A stretch of 23,135 nucleotides of DNA from a virus: positions 1 to 23,135 of the IMG/VR virus record IMGVR_UViG_3300020221_000125, one strand, 5' to 3'. Below, in pieces: positions 1,713-14,834 of this stretch; position 1 is the stretch's first letter, and each line of letters begins with the position of its first letter. The notes beneath the pieces are model-generated. The model was given only the letters and a program-made list of their open reading frames with translations, was not told the DNA's origin and searched no databases. The position numbers and the translations under genes were made by a program.

Positions 1713-2561
1713 TTAATTACCCTCTAAATTTACATCTTTGTCAAAAGGTTCCCACTGCGGATTTCTGCGATCATAATCCCAACCACCAATTAGAAACTGC
1801 TTATTATCACCTGGATAATCGTCAGGTGTCTCTCCGTCATAAACAACGATTAGTTTTTCATCGTGATTCATTGGATTTAACCACCTTGCTGCCCAAACTT
1901 CATAGTAACAATGAATATTTGCACCAACACCAGAGCGAATGATAATATTTTTACCCCACTCAATTCTTTCAACAATTAAATCTTGAGAATATCCAATTTG
2001 AGTGAGAGTTACTGTGATGGTTTCTGGATCAATCAATCCATCCCAATATTCTGGTAGTTCAATAACATTCGTATCTTTAATCTTACCTCTTACATAAATT
2101 CCTGCTTCTGGACCCTCTGCGACGATGTGTCTAATTCTTTTTCCCTTCTTTTTTGCATGTGGAATATCAAAGGAACTTGCAAGTTTATTTCCAGTAGCTA
2201 CTCCATTAAAGACAGATGCCGTAACCGATCCAGCAACAACGACATCACCTAAAACTGATGCATACTCAGAATTTAAAATGACTGTATCAGCATCTATGGA
2301 TAAGCAAGGAATACTACCATTCGCATGACCTACATTTAAAAATTGAGTTAAATTTCCATAGCAATACATTCCAACGTAATCAATTTCATTGTGATATAAA
2401 ACAACTGCGATATCTGTGATTTTAAATGAGGTATCATTTGGTTCGTCTTTATCCCACTCTAAACCTATTTCTTTGGAACTTGAATCGTAATCATAATTAC
2501 CAGTTAGACTTAACGGTCCTGTAAAAGTTCCATAGTCTTGAAAAAGAAATGGTCCTGGCAT
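1713..2561 (-). CDS. Putative tail fibre/decoration protein with 'EGPE..YxRG' domain
   Basis: A 282-residue protein with a variable beta-rich N-terminal half (about 1-125). A conserved-looking C-terminal domain (about 128-226) is marked by AEGPEAGIYVRGK, ELPEYWDGLI, ITVTLTQIGYSQDLIVE and a final Tyr-rich strand HCYYEVWAARW. The same domain, with the same motifs in the same order, occurs in the gene immediately upstream, so the two are paralogues. The last 55 residues are extra and acidic/aromatic. Related modules are common, from my memory of the family, at the C-termini of cyanophage virion proteins, where they probably support trimeric fibre or appendage assembly. Its start overlaps the upstream stop (TAATG), indicating coupled translation. 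Confidence 0.75.
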   Translation of the reverse strand: MPGPFLFQDYGTFTGPLSLTGNYDYDSSSKEIGLEWDKDEPNDTSFKITDIAVVLYHNEIDYVGMYCYGNLTQFLNVGHANGSIPCLSIDADTVILNSEYASVLGDVVVAGSVTASVFNGVATGNKLASSFDIPHAKKKGKRIRHIVAEGPEAGIYVRGKIKDTNVIELPEYWDGLIDPETITVTLTQIGYSQDLIVERIEWGKNIIIRSGVGANIHCYYEVWAARWLNPMNHDEKLIVVYDGETPDDYPGDNKQFLIGGWDYDRRNPQWEPFDKDVNLEGN

Positions 2562-3256
2562 TATGCATCAATCTCCGTTTCTAATTTATGAATGTCTTTT
2601 CTTTCTGCGAAGATATGATAAAAACAATCTATTGACATGCTGTAGTTTGATTGAATAGTGATGTACTCTTGTGTAATCTCCTTTACGATTAAATCTTGAT
2701 GTGATCCAATTGGAGTTAAGGAAACTGTAATTGTATGATAATCTATCAAATTTGTCCAGTATTCTGGTAAGAAAATTTTATCGTTAGCACTAAGTCTTCC
2801 TCTTATATAGACGCCATTTTCAGGTCCTTCTAGGCAAGCATGAACTAATTTTTTATTTTCTTTGTTTGGGTGATCAATAATAAAGTTTTTACTCCTAGCC
2901 ATCAAAGTTTCAGTGTATATTATCTTTGCTTTGATTAGTTCAACGGTAAGTAATTTATCTACTTTTAAAAATGATTTAATTCTAGCGTATGTTTTTACAA
3001 ATAAAGAATATTTTGGTTTTTCTGGTGTTTGAAACTCATTTGTAGTTTCCGATATACTAATCGTACCAAATTCAGTTCGTTCATTTGCATCATTTCTTGT
3101 GTATGCATTAGAGTTTCCAACATGCAAAGGACCTTCAATGTAAGCAGAACCTGGTGTTTCTCCTGTTTTTTCAATAGGTTCTAATAGAGGACTTGATATA
3201 GCAGCATCAGTTGCAACCTCTAGATAAACTGTTTGTACTACATCAGATTGGGACAT
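2561..3256 (-). CDS. Putative tail fibre/decoration protein, paralogue of the downstream gene
   Basis: A 231-residue protein. Residues 120-219 carry HACLEGPENGVYIRGR, FLPEYWTNLIDYHTITV, SLTPIGSHQDLIVKEI and CFYHIFAERK, which align in order and spacing with the C-terminal domain of the next gene downstream. The N-terminal half (about 1-118) differs and includes an amphipathic region KSFLKVDKLLTVELIKAK. So this appears to be a duplicated domain carrying different N-terminal attachment regions. The gene starts three bases after the preceding spike-like gene ends and overlaps the next gene by one base. Function as a minor virion protein is inferred from context. Confidence 0.75.
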   Translation of the reverse strand: MSQSDVVQTVYLEVATDAAISSPLLEPIEKTGETPGSAYIEGPLHVGNSNAYTRNDANERTEFGTISISETTNEFQTPEKPKYSLFVKTYARIKSFLKVDKLLTVELIKAKIIYTETLMARSKNFIIDHPNKENKKLVHACLEGPENGVYIRGRLSANDKIFLPEYWTNLIDYHTITVSLTPIGSHQDLIVKEITQEYITIQSNYSMSIDCFYHIFAERKDIHKLETEIDA

Positions 3257-3259
3257 TTT

Positions 3260-3847
3260 TTATTTAGCAGTAAGTTTTCTTTTGAAAGGAAGTGCTTTTT
3301 TCAGAGGCCCTCCCTGAGATGAACTACAAAATGATTTTGACATAGCTGCTGACATTTCAGCTAAACCAGATACTTGTAAAGCATAGTTTCCACTTGAAGC
3401 CAATCTCATCATTTTTCCAGATTCTATTTCTATATTTGGTGCGCTAATAGAAACTTTTTGTCCTCCTTTAATATGAACGTTGCCTTCATTAACCTTTCTT
3501 ACATTAAAACCAGACTGTATATGTATATCTCGTGCTAATAATCTAATGCTCCCATTTTCACATGTGATTGAAATATCTCCATTTTCGGCAATCATAAAAA
3601 TACCACTACTCGTCTCTGGTGTCTTTTTACCTGCCTTAACTGCAAATGTTCCAGGTGAACTAAAAAGTGTCCATCCGGAAGATTCTGGTCCACGATTTAC
3701 ATCAAATGACATATAATGCTCTGGGTCATATCCAGATGAATGTTTGTAAGCAAAAAATGTTGTTTGATCATCCCAATATTTTCCCTTTTCAATAATTACA
3801 TCTGCAGTTGCATCATTTCCGCCATACTTGCTATGATAATCAGCCAT
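3260..3847 (-). CDS. Beta-helix-like spike protein (gp5 C-terminal type)
   Basis: A 195-residue protein. From about 75 to 160 it is built of short alternating strands with regular period: GIFMIAENGDISIT, NGSIRLLARDIHIQSG, GNVHIKGGQKVSISAP, NIEIESGKMMRLAS. This resembles the intertwined beta-helix needle of T4 gp5 and VgrG C-termini. The N-terminal third is acidic and aromatic; the C-terminus is basic (PLKKALPFKRKLTAK). Its start codon lies inside the end of the gp5-like gene (8-base overlap), which fits a needle part made alongside the hub. In T4 the OB-fold and needle are one polypeptide; here they seem to be separate. The fold is inferred from strand periodicity alone. Confidence 0.65.
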   Translation of the reverse strand: MADYHSKYGGNDATADVIIEKGKYWDDQTTFFAYKHSSGYDPEHYMSFDVNRGPESSGWTLFSSPGTFAVKAGKKTPETSSGIFMIAENGDISITCENGSIRLLARDIHIQSGFNVRKVNEGNVHIKGGQKVSISAPNIEIESGKMMRLASSGNYALQVSGLAEMSAAMSKSFCSSSQGGPLKKALPFKRKLTAK

Positions 3848-6596
3848 TTACTTTACCTACACAATCAATTACGCTTATGATTTTATCTTGTCCCAACTTC
3901 TGAGCCTCCTCTTTTGTTGTTCGTTTTACCTTCAGTACAGCAAACATATCTGCATTAATTCCAGTTTTAGTATTGCATATTTTAATTGATGGTCTCTCAG
4001 TAACAAATGTACCTCTATTTAGAATTCTAACATTAATTAACCTACCATATGGATCGAATTGAGGTTCAAGTTTAGCACCATTATCAGGAGTAATGCAAAT
4101 CTTATCGTCGAGAGAATAATTAATTCCAGTATTTTTAATGATAACATCATCAAGTTCTAAAACGACATTATAGGTATCAAGAACAGAGGTAGAGGTGTCT
4201 GAATCAATTTTAGAGGGGATTGGTGGAATTGTTACTACACAATCTTGATGAAATGTATAAGTATTGCCAGACTTAGTAAATTTACAATCCGGTTTAATTT
4301 CTCCTAATGTCGGAGACAAAATAATTGAACAACCGGAATTTACGCCAGCAGTGCCACCTGGAAGAATCGTAATAGGAATATTTGGATAATTATTGACTTT
4401 TTTATTACACTCGGTTTCTATAGCAGGTGCAATTGAGTTCGTGCCGATACCAGATGAAACTGAGTCCGTGCCGATACCAGATTTGATTTTCTGTTTAAAA
4501 GATTCAATTATCGGTCCCAAGTTTGGAAATGTAAATACACTGGTATCAATGACAAAATCAGCTCCACTCGGAAGAATAAGAGCATTTGCATTCAATCCAA
4601 CATCTACGCTGGTAACTCCAGAAGAACCTAAACTTCCATTAGGTTTCTTTAGATATCCAGTCCCACCATCCACGACTCTAACACCTACAATTTTACCACA
4701 ATTTTCTCCACTTGTTCCAACAATTACCTCTGCTTTTGCTCCAGAACCCTTTCCACAAGGATCATCAAAATATACAAAAGGATTTGAATAATAGTTAATA
4801 CCGGAACTTAATATATCGACAGCAAGAATTTCACCCGAAGATCCAATAATCGCATTTGCAGCAGCACCAATTCCACCCCCACCAAACAATTGAACTGCGG
4901 GAGGCCCACATAATCCAGGACCACTCAGACATTCTGATATAGAACCTGCTGAAGGTGGAATCTCAGATGGATTACCTAAAAAGTTGCTTAAACTTGTAGA
5001 TGGTGATGATCTAATATTTTTTAATTCTTTTGAATATTCATCATCTTCACTTGGTTTTGGACCATCTAACCAGGACCAAATTTCTACCTCTGGACAAGGA
5101 TCTTCTTTTTCGCAAGATAAAAAGCTTTCAATAGCACTCACAAAACTTAATGCTTGATCTAAGCTTCCACTAGCAGCTCCTAAGAATGCACTAAGTGGGG
5201 CTAAAATCATATTTAAAACACCTTCAATTGGTCCAATAATACTATCAAGAAGTGCTCCTATCATACTATCAATTATACACTGAGCAGCATTAAGGATCTT
5301 ATCCAGCATGTTTGAAAGAAAATCAACAAGAAGATCAAACAAAGAATCCATTATTTTATCAAAAAGACAAGAAATAATATCAAGAATTTCTTGTAAATTT
5401 TCACCTACTTTAATTTGGTCTTTTGCTCTAAGTGTGTTAGCTAGTTTCTCATATCTTTTTTTGATCTCATTAATTACCCAATCTCTAAACTTATTTAATT
5501 TCTCTTGTATAAATCCATTAATAATTCCCGCACATTTTCTAATTTCTGCTGTTATGTTTGCAATTTCGTTCAAAGATGGATTAATGTACGTGTCATTAAT
5601 TCTTTGCATTCCTTTTATTGCTCTAGTTAAATTTTTAATTGCTGATTTTATTTTACTTTTGTTTTTTTTATCCTTTTTGCAAGCATTCGCAAGAGTATAT
5701 TCTTTATTATCTTGTTGTTGATTGACTTGTGTCTTGGACCTTATATCTCCGGCTCCATTACCCCCTTCTGGATTTGCTGGTTTTGCTGGGTTGGGTGTTG
5801 TAGCACTTACCGTGACTGGTGATGTCGCATTAGGTGGACCAAATTTAGCACGTGCAGTAGCAGCAAGAACTTTTTGTTCTAATGGCTCACCACTTAGTCC
5901 TGCTGCTTTTCCTTCTTCTCTAGCTTTTTTAGCTGCTTCAAATTCTGCCTTTGTTGGAGTTAGATCAGTGCGAAGAATTTTTTTCAGTTCAGCAGCGGGC
6001 ATCTGTTCATAGTTAGTATTAGAAGGTTGTACACCTCCACCTGCCGCTGCCGATCCACTCGAAACTGGAATTGGTGGTGCATTAGTTCCTCCTTGAATTC
6101 TATCCCTTTGAACTGCTGCTGGATCCCTTTGACCATGAGATGGAACTTGTTTTCCAGTTGAGGTATAACCCGAAAATGGTTTAAATCCTAATGAAGGTAA
6201 AGACTTTGAAAGAATTGTTTGCGTTGAATTTCCAAGATGACCGATAATAACAGGTTGCTGCCCGTTATCTCCATCTAAAAAGAAACCAAAAACAAATTCA
6301 CCACCAGAGAACCTAGGAGTTGTTGTGTTTCCCCCCGAACCAGATCCAGCGGTCGTTGGCAACATTACCAAAGCCCACGGTAACTCTTCATCAGAAAGGG
6401 TGGTTAAATCTGATGTGTGGTATCCAAGAATTCGTACCTTTACTCTATACTGAAATCCAGGTAAATCTGATGGACTATTTTGAGGTAGAGTTGGTAAATT
6501 TCCGTTCCAAATTTTTGCATCAGGAACTTGACCGATCCACCAAATGAAACCGTCTCTTCCTATAAAATTTTTGGAAAGTAATCCTGAGTCAAGCAT
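3840..6596 (-). CDS. gp5: Baseplate central hub protein, gp5-like, without lysozyme domain
   Basis: A 918-residue protein. Residues about 10-123 look like the T4 gp5 N-terminal OB-fold: FIGRDGFIWWIGQVPD, YRVKVRILGYHT, LPWALVMLP and FVFGFFLDGDNGQQPVIIGH. They are followed by a low-complexity Pro/Ala/Gly/Thr linker (about 130-290), a Lys-rich helical region (300-390) and a long amphipathic helical region with spaced Cys (400-495). Beta modules with GxGY-type turns lie around 570-650 (INYYSNPFVYFDDP, VVDGGTGYLKKP), and related modules recur near 840-905. I see no gp5 T4-lysozyme motif (Glu, then Asp/Thr with GIGH), so the protein is probably structural. The start overlaps the stop of the CP12-like gene (TAATG). 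T4 gp5 is 575 residues, so this version is much extended. Confidence 0.8.
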   Translation of the reverse strand: MLDSGLLSKNFIGRDGFIWWIGQVPDAKIWNGNLPTLPQNSPSDLPGFQYRVKVRILGYHTSDLTTLSDEELPWALVMLPTTAGSGSGGNTTTPRFSGGEFVFGFFLDGDNGQQPVIIGHLGNSTQTILSKSLPSLGFKPFSGYTSTGKQVPSHGQRDPAAVQRDRIQGGTNAPPIPVSSGSAAAGGGVQPSNTNYEQMPAAELKKILRTDLTPTKAEFEAAKKAREEGKAAGLSGEPLEQKVLAATARAKFGPPNATSPVTVSATTPNPAKPANPEGGNGAGDIRSKTQVNQQQDNKEYTLANACKKDKKNKSKIKSAIKNLTRAIKGMQRINDTYINPSLNEIANITAEIRKCAGIINGFIQEKLNKFRDWVINEIKKRYEKLANTLRAKDQIKVGENLQEILDIISCLFDKIMDSLFDLLVDFLSNMLDKILNAAQCIIDSMIGALLDSIIGPIEGVLNMILAPLSAFLGAASGSLDQALSFVSAIESFLSCEKEDPCPEVEIWSWLDGPKPSEDDEYSKELKNIRSSPSTSLSNFLGNPSEIPPSAGSISECLSGPGLCGPPAVQLFGGGGIGAAANAIIGSSGEILAVDILSSGINYYSNPFVYFDDPCGKGSGAKAEVIVGTSGENCGKIVGVRVVDGGTGYLKKPNGSLGSSGVTSVDVGLNANALILPSGADFVIDTSVFTFPNLGPIIESFKQKIKSGIGTDSVSSGIGTNSIAPAIETECNKKVNNYPNIPITILPGGTAGVNSGCSIILSPTLGEIKPDCKFTKSGNTYTFHQDCVVTIPPIPSKIDSDTSTSVLDTYNVVLELDDVIIKNTGINYSLDDKICITPDNGAKLEPQFDPYGRLINVRILNRGTFVTERPSIKICNTKTGINADMFAVLKVKRTTKEEAQKLGQDKIISVIDCVGKVNG
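4435..4482. repeat. Short in-frame direct repeat inside the gp5-like gene
   Basis: The 21-base unit at 4435-4455 recurs at 4462-4482 with one mismatch, a period of 27 bases. On the coding (minus) strand this encodes two copies of a 9-residue unit, SGIGTDSVS and SGIGTNSIA. The period is a multiple of three, so copy-number change would keep frame. It probably reflects slippage in a flexible linker. Confidence 0.85.
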
Positions 6597-6837: not shown

Positions 6838-8223
6838 CTACTTTTTACCAACAGAATCTCTAACTAAATTCAAATAAGTATAATGAAATTTTCTAGAGAC
6901 ATATTGATTAATGTCTGCAATTAAATAGTTACCACTTAATTCTTTATTAACTGAATTTTCTGCAGTATTTCCTGATGATGGGTTTGGAAACTCGCAGTAA
7001 ATTATATCTCCAGCGTGTAAAGAAAAATCACCTGGTACGGTAATTGAAATTTTGTTTGAAAAAAGTTGATTAAATCTTGCAATTGATTGATGAAGATTTA
7101 AATCTTTACTGTCGTTCATTTGACTTGGATTTTGTCTCCAAGATTCTAATTGTTTGCCCCCAGTTGTTCCCGATGGGAGATTGCCGTTATCTTTTACAAG
7201 ACACATTAAACGGCAAGGTTTATCTGGATCTAAAAATTGTTGGTCAATAAAGTCAAGTTTTTTTCCTGCTGTAGTTGCATTATTTTTTTGAGGTGATGAT
7301 TTTACAACTAATTGTTGATCACTATCCGTTCTTCTTTCCGGTGCAATTCTTTGGGATTCCGTTGCTGAATTTATAACCGCATCTACCTTGAAAGTGTATG
7401 GATCAAAATATATTATTCTTGTGTTGTATGTCCCAATTTGCATTTTATTTTGAATATTAATATTTTCATCAATAGAATATTGTAGAATCTTTTTAAAAGA
7501 TCCGTCTGAATATTCATCAGATTTGCTTGGAGGAGTATTTGTATAGATGTATTTGTTCTTTGCAGGTTGACCTAATAAACCATCAACAGATTTAAATTTA
7601 TACCCCTCTGAAGTTTTGAAAAAGAAAAACCCAGCACAAGATCCAGACTTACCAAGAGGAATAGCTTTGGGTGATAACCAATCTAAAATATATAATGGTT
7701 TGCGATCATTACCAATAAAATTGTAAACGTTTTCTGTGTCCTCCACATCAAGTTCAGAGTCATTTAAACCAAATATTTTTCCATCTTTCAAAATACTTTT
7801 GATTGTTTCAGATATTTTACCACCATATCTTCTCACAACTCTCGTCTGTTCATTTGACAAATACTCTCTTGGGAACAAAGACATCATAAAAGATGCTTTT
7901 TGTGTTCCTACATCACCAGACTTAATTGTATTTGTATATAAAGTTTGTTTGAATTTAACTCCTTGAGAGTCTTCTAAAGCAATTTCAACTTCTTCACCAC
8001 CCCTCAAAAATCCAGATAAAACATTGGTCTGTGATCCCTCAACAACACCAGCACCAACGTCAATTGCAGCAACATCCATAGAAGAAGTCGCATTCAAAAT
8101 ACTTTCATAGTAATTCAGTTCGGCAACACCGGAGAGAAAATCAACAACACTATTCGGACCTTTTTTGACAAGAAAAGTCAGAAATTTAGCTTCTTTGATT
8201 GATTTTAAATCTAAATTTGACAT
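6838..8223 (-). CDS. Baseplate hub protein, gp27-like
   Basis: A 461-residue protein with an N-terminal region of mixed strands (ELNYYESILNATSSMDVAAIDVG near 35-55, EEVEIALEDSQGVKFKQTLY) and a C-terminal region with FSLHAGDIIYCEFPN and SGNYLIADINQYVSRKFHYTYLNLVRDS. That pattern (mixed strands plus a C-terminal 'y.i..v.h....y.t.l.l.r') is the usual look of hub proteins of the gp27/gpD/VgrG type, which form the ring on which the gp5 spike sits. T4 gp27 is 391 residues. Position also fits: T4 has 26-51-27, and here gp26, the gp51-position ORF and the two large tail proteins precede it. It begins inside the stop of the upstream gene (TAATG). Identity is a context-aided guess; a generic virion structural protein is the alternative. 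Confidence 0.6.
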   Translation of the reverse strand: MSNLDLKSIKEAKFLTFLVKKGPNSVVDFLSGVAELNYYESILNATSSMDVAAIDVGAGVVEGSQTNVLSGFLRGGEEVEIALEDSQGVKFKQTLYTNTIKSGDVGTQKASFMMSLFPREYLSNEQTRVVRRYGGKISETIKSILKDGKIFGLNDSELDVEDTENVYNFIGNDRKPLYILDWLSPKAIPLGKSGSCAGFFFFKTSEGYKFKSVDGLLGQPAKNKYIYTNTPPSKSDEYSDGSFKKILQYSIDENINIQNKMQIGTYNTRIIYFDPYTFKVDAVINSATESQRIAPERRTDSDQQLVVKSSPQKNNATTAGKKLDFIDQQFLDPDKPCRLMCLVKDNGNLPSGTTGGKQLESWRQNPSQMNDSKDLNLHQSIARFNQLFSNKISITVPGDFSLHAGDIIYCEFPNPSSGNTAENSVNKELSGNYLIADINQYVSRKFHYTYLNLVRDSVGKK

Positions 8224-10883
8224 TATGCTGTTGCTTTATTTACTGCGATTTCATAATCTAATTTATTATTATTTACACCACCACCATCAGCAACAATCAT
8301 ACCTCTACCAGATTGGTTTTGGTTCATCGGAACATATACAATTTGTCTGACCACTTGTAATTTTGTTAAAGGTCTATCATAAGATGCAAATCTAGAAACA
8401 CCTGAGTATGATGTTGCGGATGGAGAGTATGGTTTTGATGGTGTCATTTTTACTTGTGATGGTTGCATTGGAACATTTTTAGCTCCAACTTTAGATTTTT
8501 TATCTTTACCTAAATTATATTTCTCAGCATTTTTTAGTATGTCTTCGGCAAATCCAAACCTATTACCCTCTACAGAATAACCTTCGTATCCTTTAATGAA
8601 TTTCTTGTGTGCTGATTTATCATTTCCTTTCATCATTGAAAGTCCAGCATTATATGTTTGCCCCTCTACAATTGTGTATTCTAGTTGAGCATAAAAGTCA
8701 CCAATCTGTTTATTGTTTTTTTCTGCCCATTTTTGATATCCTAACCATCTAGCCCCAGCAGCTGGATCAATCCTCCATTGAGCCAATCCGAATGCTTTTC
8801 CATTATCACCTATGGCATCTGGTCTTAATCCGGATTCTTGCAAAAGGTTTCCAACCATATAAGCGGCACCAGTATCAGAAAATCCTTTTGACTTATAAAA
8901 AGCAAGTGCTGCTTTGATTTTGTCATCTTTACCTGTAGGAACATTGACTGGTGCAGGAGCGCTACCATCCGGTTCTTTATCTCCACCACCACCAGCTCCT
9001 CCAGCTGCTTTCTTAGCTTCCTCTGTTGCATTAAGCATAATAAATTTAATCAACCCTTGTAAAGGAGATAATGTATCATATAAAGCTTTTCCTAAAAATT
9101 GAGTAATTGCATTTGACAAAAATAGACCAAAATCTCTTCCAACTACTTTCTGAACCAGGTTTCCTAATCCTGGCATTGTTTTATCTAAAAAATTATAAAT
9201 TGATACTGCTAATGGGTTTCCAAGAAGATTTCCAATTCCCGCAGCAATTCCTAATGCATTGGACTTTGAAAATCTTTCTTTACCTAAAGCTAAACTAATT
9301 CCCAATGCGGCAAATGGACCAATACCTGCTGCACTTGAAGAAATTAAATTTGCAACATCAGTAAATCCACCAAAAAGTTTTTCACCAATCCTATCTGTTA
9401 ATTGAGGATCTGCAGAAATTTTGCTTATAATTGGATTGGATGAAGATGTTCCTTGTTGTTGAATTGCCTTTTGAGATGAACCAAGACCTCTAGATGCAGA
9501 TGCAGTTGATTTTGGTTTTCCACTAAAAAAGTTTTGAACTCCACTTACCAATCCACCAAAGAAATATCCTTTTGGTTTTTCAGTTTTTTTCTTTGGTCCT
9601 TTCTTTTTATCATCTGGTTTATTTGCGAACATATCATATACTGCACCACCTAATAAGTCACCCAAAAATCCACCAAGAATTGTTCCTGCAAATGGAACAG
9701 GGATTAAGGTTCCAAGTCCTGCGCCAAGAGTAGCACCAACTGCTTTTGCTGCTGCTCTTCCTGGTTTCTCTCGCAATATTGCGAGATTGATAATAAAATC
9801 AATCAGTCCACCAATGATGGGTATTCTACCAAATACTTTTCCAGCTAATCTTAATCCACCTCTACCCAAAACTCTTGCTGCTAATCTGGTAGGTAATCTT
9901 CCTAATCCTCTACCAAAAAGTTTACTACCACTTTCTGTTCCACCCAAAGAACCCATCATTCTTTGAGGTGTTATTCTTCCTTTATCTACATATCTACTTA
10001 AAACATTTTTTGTTGCTTGTGTAGAATTTAAACCTTTTGCTTTCTCTAAATCATATAATCTTGCAAAAGCATCACCATATTTTTGTCTTATTAAAGCTCT
10101 CTTAGGATCGTGCTCTCTAAGAAGTTCTTTTGCACTTTTTAATGGACCTCCTTTACCTCCACCACCTCTCTCAGGTCTCTCAAATAAATCCAATCCATCA
10201 GCAACAGCAGAAAAAATATCACCGATGATAATGCCTGCCATCAAGGCATCTATGATACTAAACTTCTTATCAATTTCGTTAATTGCTACAGCAAGGTCTT
10301 TTTCATTCTTATCAATTTGAGCTCCAGTAATGGAACCCAACATTTTAGTTCCAGCAAGAGTAACGTTATACAACGCAGACCCTAAAGCATTGGTAATGGG
10401 ACTTAAGTATTTTTGAAGTATCTCTACTCCTTTTAAAAAGTTACTTACACCTTCCATTATTTTTGGAAGATAATCAAAGAAGGTATTAACCAACCATCCG
10501 ACAAACAAAAGAGTTAATGCATTTTTAAGTCGATCCAAGAAACTCATTCCAGGAATACGAGGTTTGGGTAAATTTAAAGTATTTTTTTTAGATTTACTTT
10601 CTAATTGCTTTTCTTCTTTCTCCTTTTCTTTTTTATCCTCAGTATCTCTTTTTTTGATGATTTCTTTTGTTTCTTCTTTTGCCCTTTTGCTTATAATACC
10701 ATTTATCTTGACTAAAGTTCCGTAAATTGGAACTAGTGCTCCACCAGAAACCCCACCACCACCTTTAGAACTGGGAGAAAATTTACGAACAGCACCTACA
10801 TTAGAAACTTTAACCATAGAAGATGAGAGTTTTATCCCTCTACTTCCTGCCTGTGGTAATAGTTTTTGTGATGAAATTGCCAT
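8223..10883 (-). CDS. Large tail protein with C-terminal phage-lysozyme-like domain
   Basis: An 886-residue protein. In order: a Gly/Ser-rich N-terminus; a Lys/Glu coiled-coil stretch (64-100); a membrane-like helix module, FLDRLKNALTLLFVGWLVNT (115-134); a long Gly/Ala/Leu-rich part (150-630) with repeated hydrophobic helices like tape-measure or hub proteins; a Gly/Pro linker; and an enzymatic domain at about 654-792. That domain has VGNLLQESGLRPDA (probable catalytic E683), GDNGKAFGLAQW and later GYEGYSVEGNRFGFAEDI, the pattern of the phage tail lysozyme family (Pfam Phage_lysozyme2). It would cut cell-wall glycan during DNA injection. A unique tail (800-886) ends the protein. It follows its paralogue by two bases and overlaps the gp27-like gene. 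Confidence 0.75.
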   Translation of the reverse strand: MAISSQKLLPQAGSRGIKLSSSMVKVSNVGAVRKFSPSSKGGGGVSGGALVPIYGTLVKINGIISKRAKEETKEIIKKRDTEDKKEKEKEEKQLESKSKKNTLNLPKPRIPGMSFLDRLKNALTLLFVGWLVNTFFDYLPKIMEGVSNFLKGVEILQKYLSPITNALGSALYNVTLAGTKMLGSITGAQIDKNEKDLAVAINEIDKKFSIIDALMAGIIIGDIFSAVADGLDLFERPERGGGGKGGPLKSAKELLREHDPKRALIRQKYGDAFARLYDLEKAKGLNSTQATKNVLSRYVDKGRITPQRMMGSLGGTESGSKLFGRGLGRLPTRLAARVLGRGGLRLAGKVFGRIPIIGGLIDFIINLAILREKPGRAAAKAVGATLGAGLGTLIPVPFAGTILGGFLGDLLGGAVYDMFANKPDDKKKGPKKKTEKPKGYFFGGLVSGVQNFFSGKPKSTASASRGLGSSQKAIQQQGTSSSNPIISKISADPQLTDRIGEKLFGGFTDVANLISSSAAGIGPFAALGISLALGKERFSKSNALGIAAGIGNLLGNPLAVSIYNFLDKTMPGLGNLVQKVVGRDFGLFLSNAITQFLGKALYDTLSPLQGLIKFIMLNATEEAKKAAGGAGGGGDKEPDGSAPAPVNVPTGKDDKIKAALAFYKSKGFSDTGAAYMVGNLLQESGLRPDAIGDNGKAFGLAQWRIDPAAGARWLGYQKWAEKNNKQIGDFYAQLEYTIVEGQTYNAGLSMMKGNDKSAHKKFIKGYEGYSVEGNRFGFAEDILKNAEKYNLGKDKKSKVGAKNVPMQPSQVKMTPSKPYSPSATSYSGVSRFASYDRPLTKLQVVRQIVYVPMNQNQSGRGMIVADGGGVNNNKLDYEIAVNKATA

Positions 10884-10885
10884 TT

Positions 10886-12916
10886 TTATCTAACGATTTG
10901 TCTGGCGGCTGCAGCACCAACACCTTGAGGGTCTTGTTTTGCTGCTGATCCAGATAGAACTGAACTTTCTGGTGCTTGTCCTTGTTGACCTCCAGGAACA
11001 CCGGTGATTTGGTCTATTGTTGGAAGAACATCAATACCTCTAGCATTAAAGGGTTGAGTGATGTAATTTAGATAAGCAGATGTCATTCTCCTTTCTTCTT
11101 CCGAGGCAAAAACAATTCCTTTTGATCCCGTTGATTGCGTTGATTCCGTTGATGATGTTGTGTCTTCTCCTGGAGGTATAGAACTTTCACCTGATAATGA
11201 TTCTGCAGAAATACTATCTTTCTTACCCAGAACATAATTTGACCAAACTTCGTGAAATCTCTTTGACCCTTCAATATGAACATGAGGTCCTGTTGATTCT
11301 CCAGTGCTGCCTTGAATACCTAAAAATTTTCCTGCTTTAACTGTTTCACCACTTTTTACAAAAAGTTTGCTAAAGTGTCCAAATAAAGCAAGATTTTTTC
11401 CACTTGAATCGACAAGTTCTACGGCATTTCCATATCCACCTGCAACGCCAGCATATTTTACTATGGCATCCACAGGAGTTGGAACATTGTAATTTGGATA
11501 CTTTGGTCCATCTATAATATAATCTTTAGTAATTCCATATTTTCTCACAGAATCACCAGTTCCATGGTGTTTTCTAAGTTGATTAAAATTAACTGGAGCA
11601 CTTAATGGTGTTAATCCACCGCCCGAACTATGTAAAATAAGTCCACCACCGGAAGCATACATTCTTCCACCAGAATATGTTGGACGGTTTGTTCCACCTC
11701 CAAGTTTATTCATAGAAAGTAAGAAGTCTTCACCAAATGTTTTAACTGCTGGTTTGGAGAAAACGATCTCTCCTTCAGTCAGATTGGCAGGGACCCTATC
11801 AATTCCAGATGGACCCTCAACTACCCCACCATCATCATACTCACCAACTCCTTGTAACATTCCATATGGACTTGCTGCTCCCATATCACCAACACCACCA
11901 ACACCCTGAAGACCTAATCCCCTTCCTGCTTGTGCTCGTGCTTTATTTTCTGCTTGAGTTTCTCCTGCCTGTCTTTGTCCAGTGACTTCATTTGCGGCAA
12001 CAGCAGCTCCTGTAACAGCGAGTGGAACTGCAACAAAAGGATTTCTAACAATTCTAGCAGCTGCACCCAAAAGTCCTCTACCACCTCTACCTCTACGAAG
12101 ACCAGAGAGAAGACCTTTTCCTTTTGCAAGGTCAGCAATCATTCTAACAAGGAACTTTATTAAATTTCTCCCCAACCACCTAACGACTTTAACTAGTGGA
12201 TTATTAAGAGCAACATATAAAAGTAATAACTTTCCTGCATTTCTAGAAAGAAAATCTACAATTGCATTAAAAGTTGTAATATTTTTGGGGTCTGATATCC
12301 AATCTATAAGAGTATTTGCTACCCACCCCAAAAGTAAAAGACCTATAGCATCACGAATTCTTTGAAAAATACCGATGACAGGCTTAAAGGTTTTTTCAAG
12401 TGCGTTAACAATTCCTTTGGAAGTCTTTTCTAATGAAGACTCTTTTGCTGTTTTATCTTCCTTATCTTTACGTGCCTTTTTATCTCTCTCATTTTTCTTT
12501 TTCCGTGCTTCTTCTTCTGATAAATTCTTCCAAATATCATTCAGAAGAGAATCAATTTTTCCTAAGATTTCTGCATTATCGTCTACAAAATTTTCTTTAG
12601 GTAAAACTCTACGTGATAAAGAACCTGCTGCAGGAGCACGATACTTAACTAACCCCGCACCTCCAGTTTTTCCACTAAAAACTGCCCGAGGATTGATTGT
12701 TGTTTTTTTAACTTTTACTGAATTTGTTTTTCCTTTAACTCTTTGAAACTCCTCACGAACTGCCATCTCTTCATCACGGGAAAGACCACCCTTTCCCACA
12801 CTAATCTCAACTAACTTTTCACGCAAATATCCTTTATAGGATTGCATATCAATTTCATCGGTCTCTTCAAGGCCCAGTATTTTAAGTATGTCTGTGCTTA
12901 CTTGTTCAACCGCCAT
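10886..12916 (-). CDS. Large tail protein with M23 peptidase-like domain
   Basis: A 676-residue protein. N-terminal helical region; Lys/Glu coiled coil (133-165); a module FQRIRDAIGLLLLGWVANTL (184-203) matching the downstream paralogue; hydrophobic/Arg-rich segments (215-310). A stretch at 361-408 (DDGGVVEGPSGIDRVPANLT, EGEIVFSKPAV) is typical of tape-measure and tail proteins. An M23/LytM-like domain follows (about 448-552): GGYGNAVELVD, LFGHFSKLFVKSGETVKAGK, GSTGESTGPHVHIE. The HxH pair (H545, H547) and GH(514) are present. The first zinc ligand motif is unclear: HGTGD (451-455) offers H-x3-D, but the aligned site reads GITKD. It probably cuts peptide cross-links of peptidoglycan, or is a structural relic. 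The tail (570-676) is Ser/Thr/Gln-rich. Confidence 0.75.
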   Translation of the reverse strand: MAVEQVSTDILKILGLEETDEIDMQSYKGYLREKLVEISVGKGGLSRDEEMAVREEFQRVKGKTNSVKVKKTTINPRAVFSGKTGGAGLVKYRAPAAGSLSRRVLPKENFVDDNAEILGKIDSLLNDIWKNLSEEEARKKKNERDKKARKDKEDKTAKESSLEKTSKGIVNALEKTFKPVIGIFQRIRDAIGLLLLGWVANTLIDWISDPKNITTFNAIVDFLSRNAGKLLLLYVALNNPLVKVVRWLGRNLIKFLVRMIADLAKGKGLLSGLRRGRGGRGLLGAAARIVRNPFVAVPLAVTGAAVAANEVTGQRQAGETQAENKARAQAGRGLGLQGVGGVGDMGAASPYGMLQGVGEYDDGGVVEGPSGIDRVPANLTEGEIVFSKPAVKTFGEDFLLSMNKLGGGTNRPTYSGGRMYASGGGLILHSSGGGLTPLSAPVNFNQLRKHHGTGDSVRKYGITKDYIIDGPKYPNYNVPTPVDAIVKYAGVAGGYGNAVELVDSSGKNLALFGHFSKLFVKSGETVKAGKFLGIQGSTGESTGPHVHIEGSKRFHEVWSNYVLGKKDSISAESLSGESSIPPGEDTTSSTESTQSTGSKGIVFASEEERRMTSAYLNYITQPFNARGIDVLPTIDQITGVPGGQQGQAPESSVLSGSAAKQDPQGVGAAAARQIVR

Positions 12917-13079
12917 TTTGTTGTTTGAGTTTCTCTTCTTCTAAATGTTGTTTTAATAAACTAACATAAACATCTCTTTCCCAAGGAATCCAATTTTCAA
13001 TATCCCTCAAAGAATATTTATGGTACTGCATCAAGGCAAAGTTTATTTTATAGTATGACTCCAAATCAATATGGTTCAT
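12906..13079 (-). CDS. 57-aa protein in the gp51 (hub assembly chaperone) position
   Basis: A 57-residue protein, MNHIDLESYYKINFALMQYH..., ending in a charged helix with WIPWERDVYVSLLKQHLEEE. It starts two bases after the gp26 stop (GGGTGAGTATG, with the ribosome-binding-like GGTGAG inside the gp26 end) and overlaps the start of the M23 tail gene by 11 bases in another frame. This tight coupling strongly supports translation. T4 has gene 51, a hub-assembly catalyst, directly after gene 26, so position suggests the same role, but T4 gp51 is about 250 residues and I cannot show homology. The 'PWxRxVYVxLLxxHLxEE' pattern also resembles small chaperones encoded ahead of tape-measure genes. Confidence 0.75.
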   Translation of the reverse strand: MNHIDLESYYKINFALMQYHKYSLRDIENWIPWERDVYVSLLKQHLEEEKLKQQNGG

Positions 13080-13081
13080 AC

Positions 13082-13804
13082 TCACCCGAAAAAAGATGCT
13101 AAGCCCTCCAAAACGACGGTACTCTTAACTTTTGTTTTTGGATTTGTCACTTCAATTTTGTGACTCAACTTTGGCATTGTTTCAAAAAACTTTTCAATTT
13201 GTTTAAATTGATTTGAATTTAATTGTTCTAAAAATTCAATTAATTCTTTTTTAGTCACATCCTCCGATGCCCAAGATTCATCTTGATTAAAAATAACATC
13301 AATGCAGGAAGCAATTAAATCAAATGATTGTTCTATACTTGCATTATTACCAGTAAAATCAAAATTATTTTTAATAAATTCTTCTAATGATGGATATCTC
13401 AATCTCATCGTAAGATTATCATCAAGTTTAATGTCCTTATTATGTTCTTCTGTTTCCTGGACTTCAATTTCATCCAATACAATTTTGACTGGAACTGTCG
13501 TCTCTTCATCATCAGGACAAATAATACTAACTTCTACTTCCTCTCCAACAGATTTTCCTCTGATGTTCAAGAACAAGTATTCAATATCAAAAGTAGGTAA
13601 TCTTTCAATTTTAATTCCCTTTGTAATGATACAATTATTCAAGACATTTTTAATTGCTGTAGAAATTTGCTTATTATCCTGACTTTCTAAAGCAAGAACT
13701 AATACTTTTTCCTCTTTAACTAAAAATGGTCTATATTGTACCTCTTGTTTTGTTGAGGGTAATACAAGATGGTATACTGGTGTGGCAATCTTCGGTAAAG
13801 GCAT
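13082..13804 (-). CDS. gp26: Baseplate hub subunit gp26
   Basis: A 240-residue protein. The N-terminus, MPLPKIATPVYHLVLPST followed by YRPFLVKEEKVLVLALES, is the hallmark of the T4-like gp26 baseplate hub family (T4 gp26 is 208 residues). Further on are LPTFDIEYLFLNIRGKSVGE, an acidic beta region, MRLRYPSLEEF, and a helical C-terminal part. Gp26 is needed for assembly of the central hub of the baseplate. The gene begins 25 bases after an AATAAATA late-promoter-like element and is followed directly by the small gp51-position ORF and the large tail genes, as expected for the T4 26-51-27 order. Confidence 0.9.
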   Translation of the reverse strand: MPLPKIATPVYHLVLPSTKQEVQYRPFLVKEEKVLVLALESQDNKQISTAIKNVLNNCIITKGIKIERLPTFDIEYLFLNIRGKSVGEEVEVSIICPDDEETTVPVKIVLDEIEVQETEEHNKDIKLDDNLTMRLRYPSLEEFIKNNFDFTGNNASIEQSFDLIASCIDVIFNQDESWASEDVTKKELIEFLEQLNSNQFKQIEKFFETMPKLSHKIEVTNPKTKVKSTVVLEGLASFFG

Positions 13805-13844: not shown

Positions 13845-14834
13845 TTAAAATGTTGCTTTCGGAAAATCTCTTGTTGTTAAAATAATTGGACCTGGACCTC
13901 TACCTGCTCCTTCTGGATTTCGTCCAGGAACACGATAGGAAAGATCATTATTTACAATATTTCTAAGTTCAGGTACGTTCTGATTTAATGCTTCTGAAAG
14001 TAATCTTTTTTGTGTTGCTGTTCCAACTTTCTTAATCATTTGTCTATTTTGCAATGCATTAATATAAAGATCTTGTCTTCCAGATCCCTGTTGAGTAAGA
14101 GGAGTGTTTATGTCTAACCCTGTTGTATCAACGCCAAATTCTGGTTGAGGAGCTGAAGAAGTAGTAGAAGGCACAGCAGATCCAACTCTATCAAATACAT
14201 ATCTATCATATGAAAAAGATACAGAGCATTTTAAAATGTCTGAGGAATCATATGAAACAGGCATAGATGTAATATCAATTGGAAAAGCATTTATAAACCT
14301 ATAAGAAATTTTATCATAAAGTCCCTCATCTTTATTGAATTTAGCAATATAAAAATTGCACTTATAAGCACTTGGGTAATTAAATCTAAATGATCCCCTT
14401 TGACCATTTTCTTCATGAATCGCAGATCCATTTCCATAAGGACTTGCAATATAACTCATCCAAGATTCAAAAAATCTAATAACTTTATACGAACTATCAA
14501 CATAAAAAGTTAATTGAAGATCATTGTAAATCTTTCGATATGGAAACTTTTGTGAGACACCTGGAAAATCAGTTGTCATCTCTGTCGTTGCAAAAGAGTT
14601 TCCTGGTAAGGAAGCTTCATTGCAATACATTCCAATATCACTTGAAACAAAGGCAGGATCTACTCCAAAAGAAGTTAAAATTTTACTAAAAGGAGGAGCT
14701 CCTGCATTAGTTTGTCCACCTGCAACAGTTTCATTTACTAAGTGAACATAGTACTGAGAAGTCTGTGCAAGTTTAGTAAATCTACTCAGTATTTCTGAGG
14801 TTTTATAATGTCTTACTGGAATATTTCCTGCCAT
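13845..14834 (-). CDS. gp54: Baseplate tail-tube initiator, gp54-like
   Basis: A 329-residue protein, close to T4 gp54 (320). It has the tail-tube-type fold markers: CNEASLPGNSFATTEMTTDF near 70-90, KIYNDLQLTFYVDSSYKVIRFF around 101-122, then NAFPIDITSMPVSYDSSDIL and KCSVSFSYDRYVFDR near 190-220. These are shared by gp19, gp48 and gp54 in T4-like phages. Gp54 caps the baseplate and starts polymerisation of the gp19 tube. The C-terminal third is Gln/Asn-rich and ends GPIILTTRDFPKATF. It is the first gene of the large minus-strand structural operon and is divergent from the gp4-like gene. No clear Shine-Dalgarno precedes its ATG. Confidence 0.8.
   Translation of the reverse strand: MAGNIPVRHYKTSEILSRFTKLAQTSQYYVHLVNETVAGGQTNAGAPPFSKILTSFGVDPAFVSSDIGMYCNEASLPGNSFATTEMTTDFPGVSQKFPYRKIYNDLQLTFYVDSSYKVIRFFESWMSYIASPYGNGSAIHEENGQRGSFRFNYPSAYKCNFYIAKFNKDEGLYDKISYRFINAFPIDITSMPVSYDSSDILKCSVSFSYDRYVFDRVGSAVPSTTSSAPQPEFGVDTTGLDINTPLTQQGSGRQDLYINALQNRQMIKKVGTATQKRLLSEALNQNVPELRNIVNNDLSYRVPGRNPEGAGRGPGPIILTTRDFPKATF

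Follow-up and report, generated by a model that had tools for sequence, protein, structure and literature searches.

Introduction

The wall-degrading enzymes of phage tails are found at several places in the particle. Gp13 of phage phi29, a protein at the tip of the tail knob, joins a lysozyme to an M23 domain. In phage T4 the lysozyme (PF00959) resides on the spike protein gp5, and gp29 (phrog_1283, PF25671) and gp28 are encoded in a gp26-gp51-gp27 neighbourhood. It is already known that tail enzymes can be located on tape measures: in Tmp of mycobacteriophage TM4 (PMC1796659) and in staphylococcal tape measures a hydrolase lies within a long tail protein. Glycan and peptide cutting are combined at the tail tip in the hub protein gp15 of A-1(L) and in the hub-hydrolase of diffocin (PMC10966104, PMC11329794), in both cases on one hub protein.

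Here, we analyse a 23-kb IMG/VR record (23,135 nucleotides, the window hereafter), in which a neighbourhood similar to that of T4 gp29 and gp28 contains two adjacent genes, termed X1 and X2. Their products presumably do the same jobs as T4 gp29, gp28 and the gp5 lysozyme, namely setting tail length and delivering a wall enzyme. However, T4 has a single gp29, without detectable sequence relation to X1 or X2, whereas kyanoviruses have two paralogs, and the enzymes are located on these tape-measure-like proteins instead of on gp5. The TM4 and staphylococcal phages likewise have a single tape measure and not two tandem proteins whose enzymes differ and are exchangeable, although M23 and lysozyme domains are common to X1/X2 and the staphylococcal tape-measure and tail-lysin proteins. 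The two activities that A-1(L) and diffocin unite on one polypeptide are spread in the window over two paralogs, and phi29 gp13 lacks the X scaffold. Orthologues of the X proteins in kyanoviruses (S-SCSM1, S-CREM2, RB11-B and others) carry varied annotations, among them 'endolysin', 'tail length tape measure protein', 'peptidase family M23' and hypothetical protein. The available parts of the literature on these orthologues do not discuss paralogy, length covariation, cassette exchange or loss of the gp5 lysozyme.

Results

X1 and X2 are adjacent paralogs in a conserved block of tail genes

The window is a fragment of a T4-like cyanophage of the Kyanoviridae type. The relatives that share this gene block and have a known taxonomy belong to the Kyanoviridae; a DNA-level search of phage records with the window gave short partial matches and nothing more. 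On the minus strand the tail tube gene is followed by gp26, a short gp51, X1, X2, a gp27-like tail protein and a gp5-like spike (Table 1). The other genes of the window encode head closure, DNA end protector, gp48, gp53, gp32, helicase loader, exonuclease, PhoH and thymidylate synthase proteins. A second tandem pair of paralogs, of 282 and 231 residues, is located downstream of gp5 (1713-2561 and 2561-3256, minus strand), and both members match PHROGs 17490 and 28536, two families without an assigned function.

Table 1. Features of the X1/X2 region and the flanking tail genes; positions refer to the window.
Feature	Position	Strand	Basis or remark
Tail tube	13845-14834	-	
gp26-like baseplate hub protein (PF12322)	13082..13804	-	left anchor of the conserved block
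Short gp51-like hub-assembly gene	12906..13085	-	overlaps the X1 start; position and size as in annotated kyanovirus gp51, synteny
X1, 676 aa, first of the pair	10886..12916	-	tape-measure-like scaffold with M23 cassette; ORF, Pfam, locus survey
X1 shared N-terminal module, residues 120-238	12203..12559	-	coiled coil, then hydrophobic helix; HMM, HHalign
X1 motif GIDRVPANLTEGEIVFSK, residues 371-388	11753..11806	-	in 24/62 X1 and 0/62 X2 proteins
X1 exchangeable cassette, residues 425-593	11140..11642	-	different M23 type in the near-identical contig L006
X1 M23/LytM-like peptidase	11261..11575	-	Pfam, Foldseek, alignment
X2, 886 aa, second of the pair	8223..10883	-	scaffold with phi29-gp13-type tail lysozyme; ORF, Pfam, AF2/Foldseek
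X2 shared N-terminal module, residues 52-168	10380..10730	-	HMM, HHalign
X2 glycine-rich hydrophobic segments, residues 344-421	9621..9854	-	PHROG 12490, hydropathy
X2 Phage_lysozyme2 domain, residues 654-779	8547..8924	-	Pfam, AF2, Foldseek
Tail protein phrog_350	6838..8223	-	gp27-like hub by position; right anchor
gp5-like spike	3840..6596	-	weak OB domain only, without lysozyme domain

X1 and X2 are paralogs, as a preliminary description of the DNA had proposed. Direct comparison by BLASTP gives 30% over 83 residues (E 2e-5), partly in low-complexity coiled coil. Profiles in which each slot was represented without proteins of the other slot also recover the relation: the X1-only HMM matches residues 53-151 of X2 in the window (E 3e-14), and the X2-only HMM matches residues 126-215 of X1 (E 2.7e-17). 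None of 124 shuffled or reversed decoys scored below 1e-3 with either profile (lowest values 0.0011 and 0.19), and the HHalign probability for X1 against X2 is 99.2%. The independently made PHROG families of the X1 and X2 proteins cross-match, and direct X1-X2 matches occur in other phages as well, with a best E of 1e-38 in S-H9-1.

Of 129 X proteins, 117 contain the N-terminal module. Its ungapped common motif, R[IL].[DN]A[IL].LL..GW..NT..D, spans residues 186-205 of X1 (12302-12361) and 118-137 of X2 (10473-10532). The module had thus been placed correctly beforehand; the longer pattern then given for it, beginning F.[RD]R[IL], misfits X1, where the F is one position off. On a tree of the module the slot label changes 10 times, compared with a mean of 40 after shuffling, which indicates that the duplication is old and that the scaffolds mostly keep to their slots.

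AF2 modelled the scaffolds poorly (mean pLDDT 52-54), and the models therefore matched no tape-measure fold. In X1 a helix of 94 residues (114-207) is predicted with modest confidence. The confident parts of the X2 model are the lysozyme domain, a coiled coil around residues 60-90 and residues 251-300, a small helical domain (9984-10133, minus strand; block pLDDT up to 90). The X1 motif in Table 1 resembles the DTVPAMLTPGEFV motif of tape-measure and tail-tip proteins, and the glycine-rich segments of X2 could possibly form a membrane-active stretch.

The pair carries different hydrolases, and gp5 lacks a lysozyme family

The C-terminal cargo differs between the two proteins, with an M23 domain on X1 and a lysozyme domain on X2, as had been predicted from the letters alone. 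The M23 domain matches Pfam PF01551 at residues 475-551 (E 6e-14, 52 bits against a cut-off of 28.7). Its AF2 model is weak, and the Foldseek match is LytM/lysostaphin. Candidate metal-binding or catalytic residues are H450/H451, D455, H514, H545 and H547, of which H545/H547 form the HxH motif. The candidate HxxxD motif, in the sequence HHGTGD (H451..D455), is kept in relatives with the same (type-A) domain; it lies outside the Pfam match and ahead of an insertion. With the HxH motif present but the candidate HxxxD preceding the insertion, activity of the type-A domain of the window appears likely, not certain.

The X2 domain matches Phage_lysozyme2 (PF18013) at residues 656-774 (E 1.3e-17, 64.7 bits against a cut-off of 28.2). 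It is modelled with pLDDT values mostly between 80 and 97, and Foldseek assigns it the lysozyme fold of phi29 gp13 (3csq/3csr, probability 1.00). The candidate catalytic glutamate, E683 (8835-8837), is invariant in 12 aligned homologues.

In eight kyanovirus gp5-like proteins, including that of the window, we found at most an OB domain and no lysozyme family. PF00959, which in T4 hits a frame of 579 residues, the size of gp5, falls on X proteins in S-CREM2 and S-CRM01, suggesting that the label 'tail lysozyme' for kyanovirus gp5 is probably an inherited annotation. Searches of ten kyanovirus genomes with the T4 gp29 families (PF25671 and phrog_1283) yielded no convincing match, and the same families were recovered in T4; two short sub-threshold matches in kyanovirus genomes were taken as chance. 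PF25671 did not match X1 or X2 of the window either.

The X1 cargo is an exchangeable cassette

One metagenomic contig, L006, is nearly identical to the window on both sides of the X1 cargo (33 mismatches in 4674 bp on the left, 99.9% identity over 1162 bp on the right). Within the X1 gene, DNA identity is complete over 1274 bp at the start and 254 bp at the end. The cassettes between these stretches have only ~20-30% amino acid identity, and that of L006 is a strong match to Pfam M23. The L006 cassette is 94-100% identical in DNA to that of contig L008, from a more distantly related phage; the scaffolds of L008 and the window are for the most part 52-98% identical. The borders of the cassette are formed by the linker SGGRMYAxGGG and a conserved C-terminal block. 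The cargo of X1 is therefore an exchangeable cassette, and the earlier idea of a duplicated scaffold with swapped enzymes is stronger than its author could know, because a natural swap is visible.

We considered whether the swap, seen in this one contig, is an assembly chimera instead of a natural recombinant. The contigs are metagenomic, the right flank is identical between the cassette types over 127 bp, and several contigs stop there, which is typical of branches in an assembly graph. At the left junction, however, L006 keeps the allele of the window and switches within 10-11 bp of the glycine-linker repeat, a length insufficient for an overlap during assembly. Moreover, the cassette of L006 carries variants of its own, with 7 differences from that of L008. 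At least three cassette types are found in contigs with the same linker, on scaffolds of 77-95% identity, and similar cassettes also occur on diverged scaffolds, so that the identity of the scaffold does not follow that of the cassette, in either direction. We consider a chimera, which would affect only the swap itself, very unlikely, mainly on account of the left junction.

Two X genes with varied cargo are the rule in kyanoviruses

We surveyed 66 non-redundant loci spanning gp26 through gp27; the freshwater phage BUCT-ZZ01, in which the gp26-X-gp27 block is not kept together, was left out. In 61 loci, gp51 and the gp27-like gene enclose exactly two X genes. Four have one (S-RSM4, ACG-2014j, ACG-2014e and S-CRM01), hence two copies are not obligatory, and one locus (L135) has three. 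The tandem genes of L135 (5706-14164) encode 827, 950 and 1039 residues, with an SLT transglycosylase on the second and Hydrolase_2 on the third product, and these two are nearest neighbours on the module tree. The single X protein of S-RSM4 (NC_013085, 184939-187941; L035) contains an M23 domain; the name given in the record, '2OG-Fe(II) oxygenase family like protein', seems to be wrong.

The Pfam cargo of the X proteins comprises M23, Phage_lysozyme2, GH24, GH19, glucosaminidase, VanY/M15, SleB-type Hydrolase_2, Amidase_2, Amidase_5 and SLT domains. Together the loci contain at least nine hydrolase families, several of which are found in either slot; in Syn1 the arrangement of the window (M23 on X1, lysozyme on X2) is reversed, with a lysozyme 65% identical to that of the window. 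For the whole locus set, cargo was called with profiles seeded from Pfam matches, and 23 of the 61 two-copy loci had no cargo recognised by these profiles. Minimal pairs of 466/418 residues (L012, 7905-10562) and 475/393 residues (L114, 5075-7685) have no recognised enzyme and would imply short tails if the X proteins are rulers.

Two recognised enzymes are present in 12 loci. Sorted by what is known of the families, glycan and peptide cutters are combined in seven (the window, L010, L011, Syn1, S-SCSM1, ACG-2014f and S-RIM2), in ACG-2014f and S-RIM2 on one protein. The other five (S-N03, S-CREM2, L087, L102 and L135) have two glycan cutters. The preliminary description had envisaged one tool for glycan and one for peptide cross-links; this describes the window, and we reject it as a rule.

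The lengths of X1 and X2 point to a probable split tape measure

As expected of tape measures, the X proteins are long and, by prediction, mainly helical or coiled-coil, and orthologues of both are virion components. They were detected by mass spectrometry in virions of S-SCSM1 (PMC9602691) and S-CREM2 (PMC10665884), which agrees with the tail location assumed at the outset.

The lengths of X1 and X2 are correlated across the 61 two-copy loci (r 0.76). The correlation persists when phylogeny is taken into account (r 0.75; 46 of 60 contrasts of the same sign) and with the recognised cargo removed (0.65). The length of gp27, used as a control, is not related in this way to X1 or X2 (r -0.19/-0.16). 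The tail of S-CREM2 is 418 nm long, and that of its cluster relative S-N03 138 nm (PMC10665884, PMC7472177). In 101 reciprocal best pairs between these phages, the largest two increases from S-N03 to S-CREM2 are those of X2 (722 to 1456 residues) and X1 (933 to 1565 residues). The next, in residues, is that of gp124 (+192, 8%); S-CREM2 proteins of 1937 and 1640 residues have no reciprocal partner and fall outside the comparison. In S-CREM2 (OR473000, 154483-163554; L038) the extra ~600 residues precede the cargo in X1 and follow it in X2.

Tail length correlates with the longest X protein with r 0.95 when S-CREM2 is included; without it r is 0.58 (n=6, not significant). The longer X protein corresponds to 0.15-0.16 nm per residue in S-SCSM1, S-N03 and S-CREM1 and to 0.13 in S-SZBM1 and MS29. 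S-CREM2 is out of line with these phages, because 418 nm requires 0.27 nm per residue. A-1(L), with a tail of 104.5 nm and a tape measure of about 689 residues (PMC10966104), comes close to the ratio of 0.15-0.16.

These proteins could instead be lysins of the virion, associated with hub or tube like phi29 gp13 and the T4 gp5 lysozyme, with another, unrecognised protein as tape measure. The enzyme domains, the 'endolysin'-type names in PHROGs and database records and the hub location of wall enzymes in A-1(L) and diffocin (PMC10966104, PMC11329794) agree with such a role. It does not account for the co-varying lengths, independent of gp27, or for the fact that X1 and X2 lengthen most among the matched proteins of the long-tailed S-CREM2; nor was a gp29 homologue found elsewhere in the ten kyanovirus genomes. 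We rejected gp124 of S-CREM2 (2668 residues), the other very long protein, as an alternative tape measure, since it has nearly the same size in short-tailed relatives. We therefore regard a purely lytic role as unlikely.

Rather improbable, in our view, is that one member of the pair is the tape measure and the other a gp28-like enzyme carrier, the length of which follows for assembly reasons. A single X gene suffices in four genomes, and at 0.15 nm per residue the longer protein alone fits the tails of S-SCSM1, S-N03 and S-CREM1. On the other hand, both proteins are ~630-730 residues longer in S-CREM2, and which member is longer differs from phage to phage. We infer that X1 and X2 resemble a split tape measure in their behaviour, and this reading explains the observations best.

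Discussion

The existence of paralogs with exchangeable enzymes at this locus is real and well supported. We further consider it probable that X1 and X2 are tail-lumen proteins of the tape-measure kind, equipped with hydrolase cassettes and filling the role of T4 gp28/gp29 in kyanoviruses. The N-terminal scaffold of coiled coil and hydrophobic helix would assemble on the gp27-gp5 hub within the tail tube, and X1 and X2 together may set the length of the tail. Each protein has a peptidoglycan hydrolase cassette between conserved flanks. Upon contraction, X1 and X2 are expected to leave the tube ahead of the DNA, after which the X1 peptidase and the X2 lysozyme would cut the wall, a job for which T4 uses the lysozyme within gp5. 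The hydrophobic segments may aid crossing of the inner membrane. Recombination in the conserved flanks would move cassettes between phages; the cassettes can reside in either slot, while the scaffolds largely stay in their own slots.

More tentatively, we propose a hetero-tape-measure for the kyanoviruses, in which two ancient paralogs co-assemble within a single tail tube, jointly set tail length and deliver different, exchange-prone hydrolases, thereby replacing the spike lysozyme of T4.

The X proteins provide a candidate tape measure for T4-like cyanophages, a T4-type one not having been found in ten kyanovirus genomes, and their cargo suggests where the entry lysozyme of these phages went. 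In L006 a tape-measure-like protein has recently exchanged a domain; Smug et al. (2023; PMC10684548) sought recent swaps of this kind and could confirm no genuine case. If the hetero-tape-measure is real, the entry enzymes of the tail would be an accessory shuffled by recombination. Because the cassette can be exchanged, it becomes possible to test whether entry enzymes follow differences in the cell walls of the hosts.
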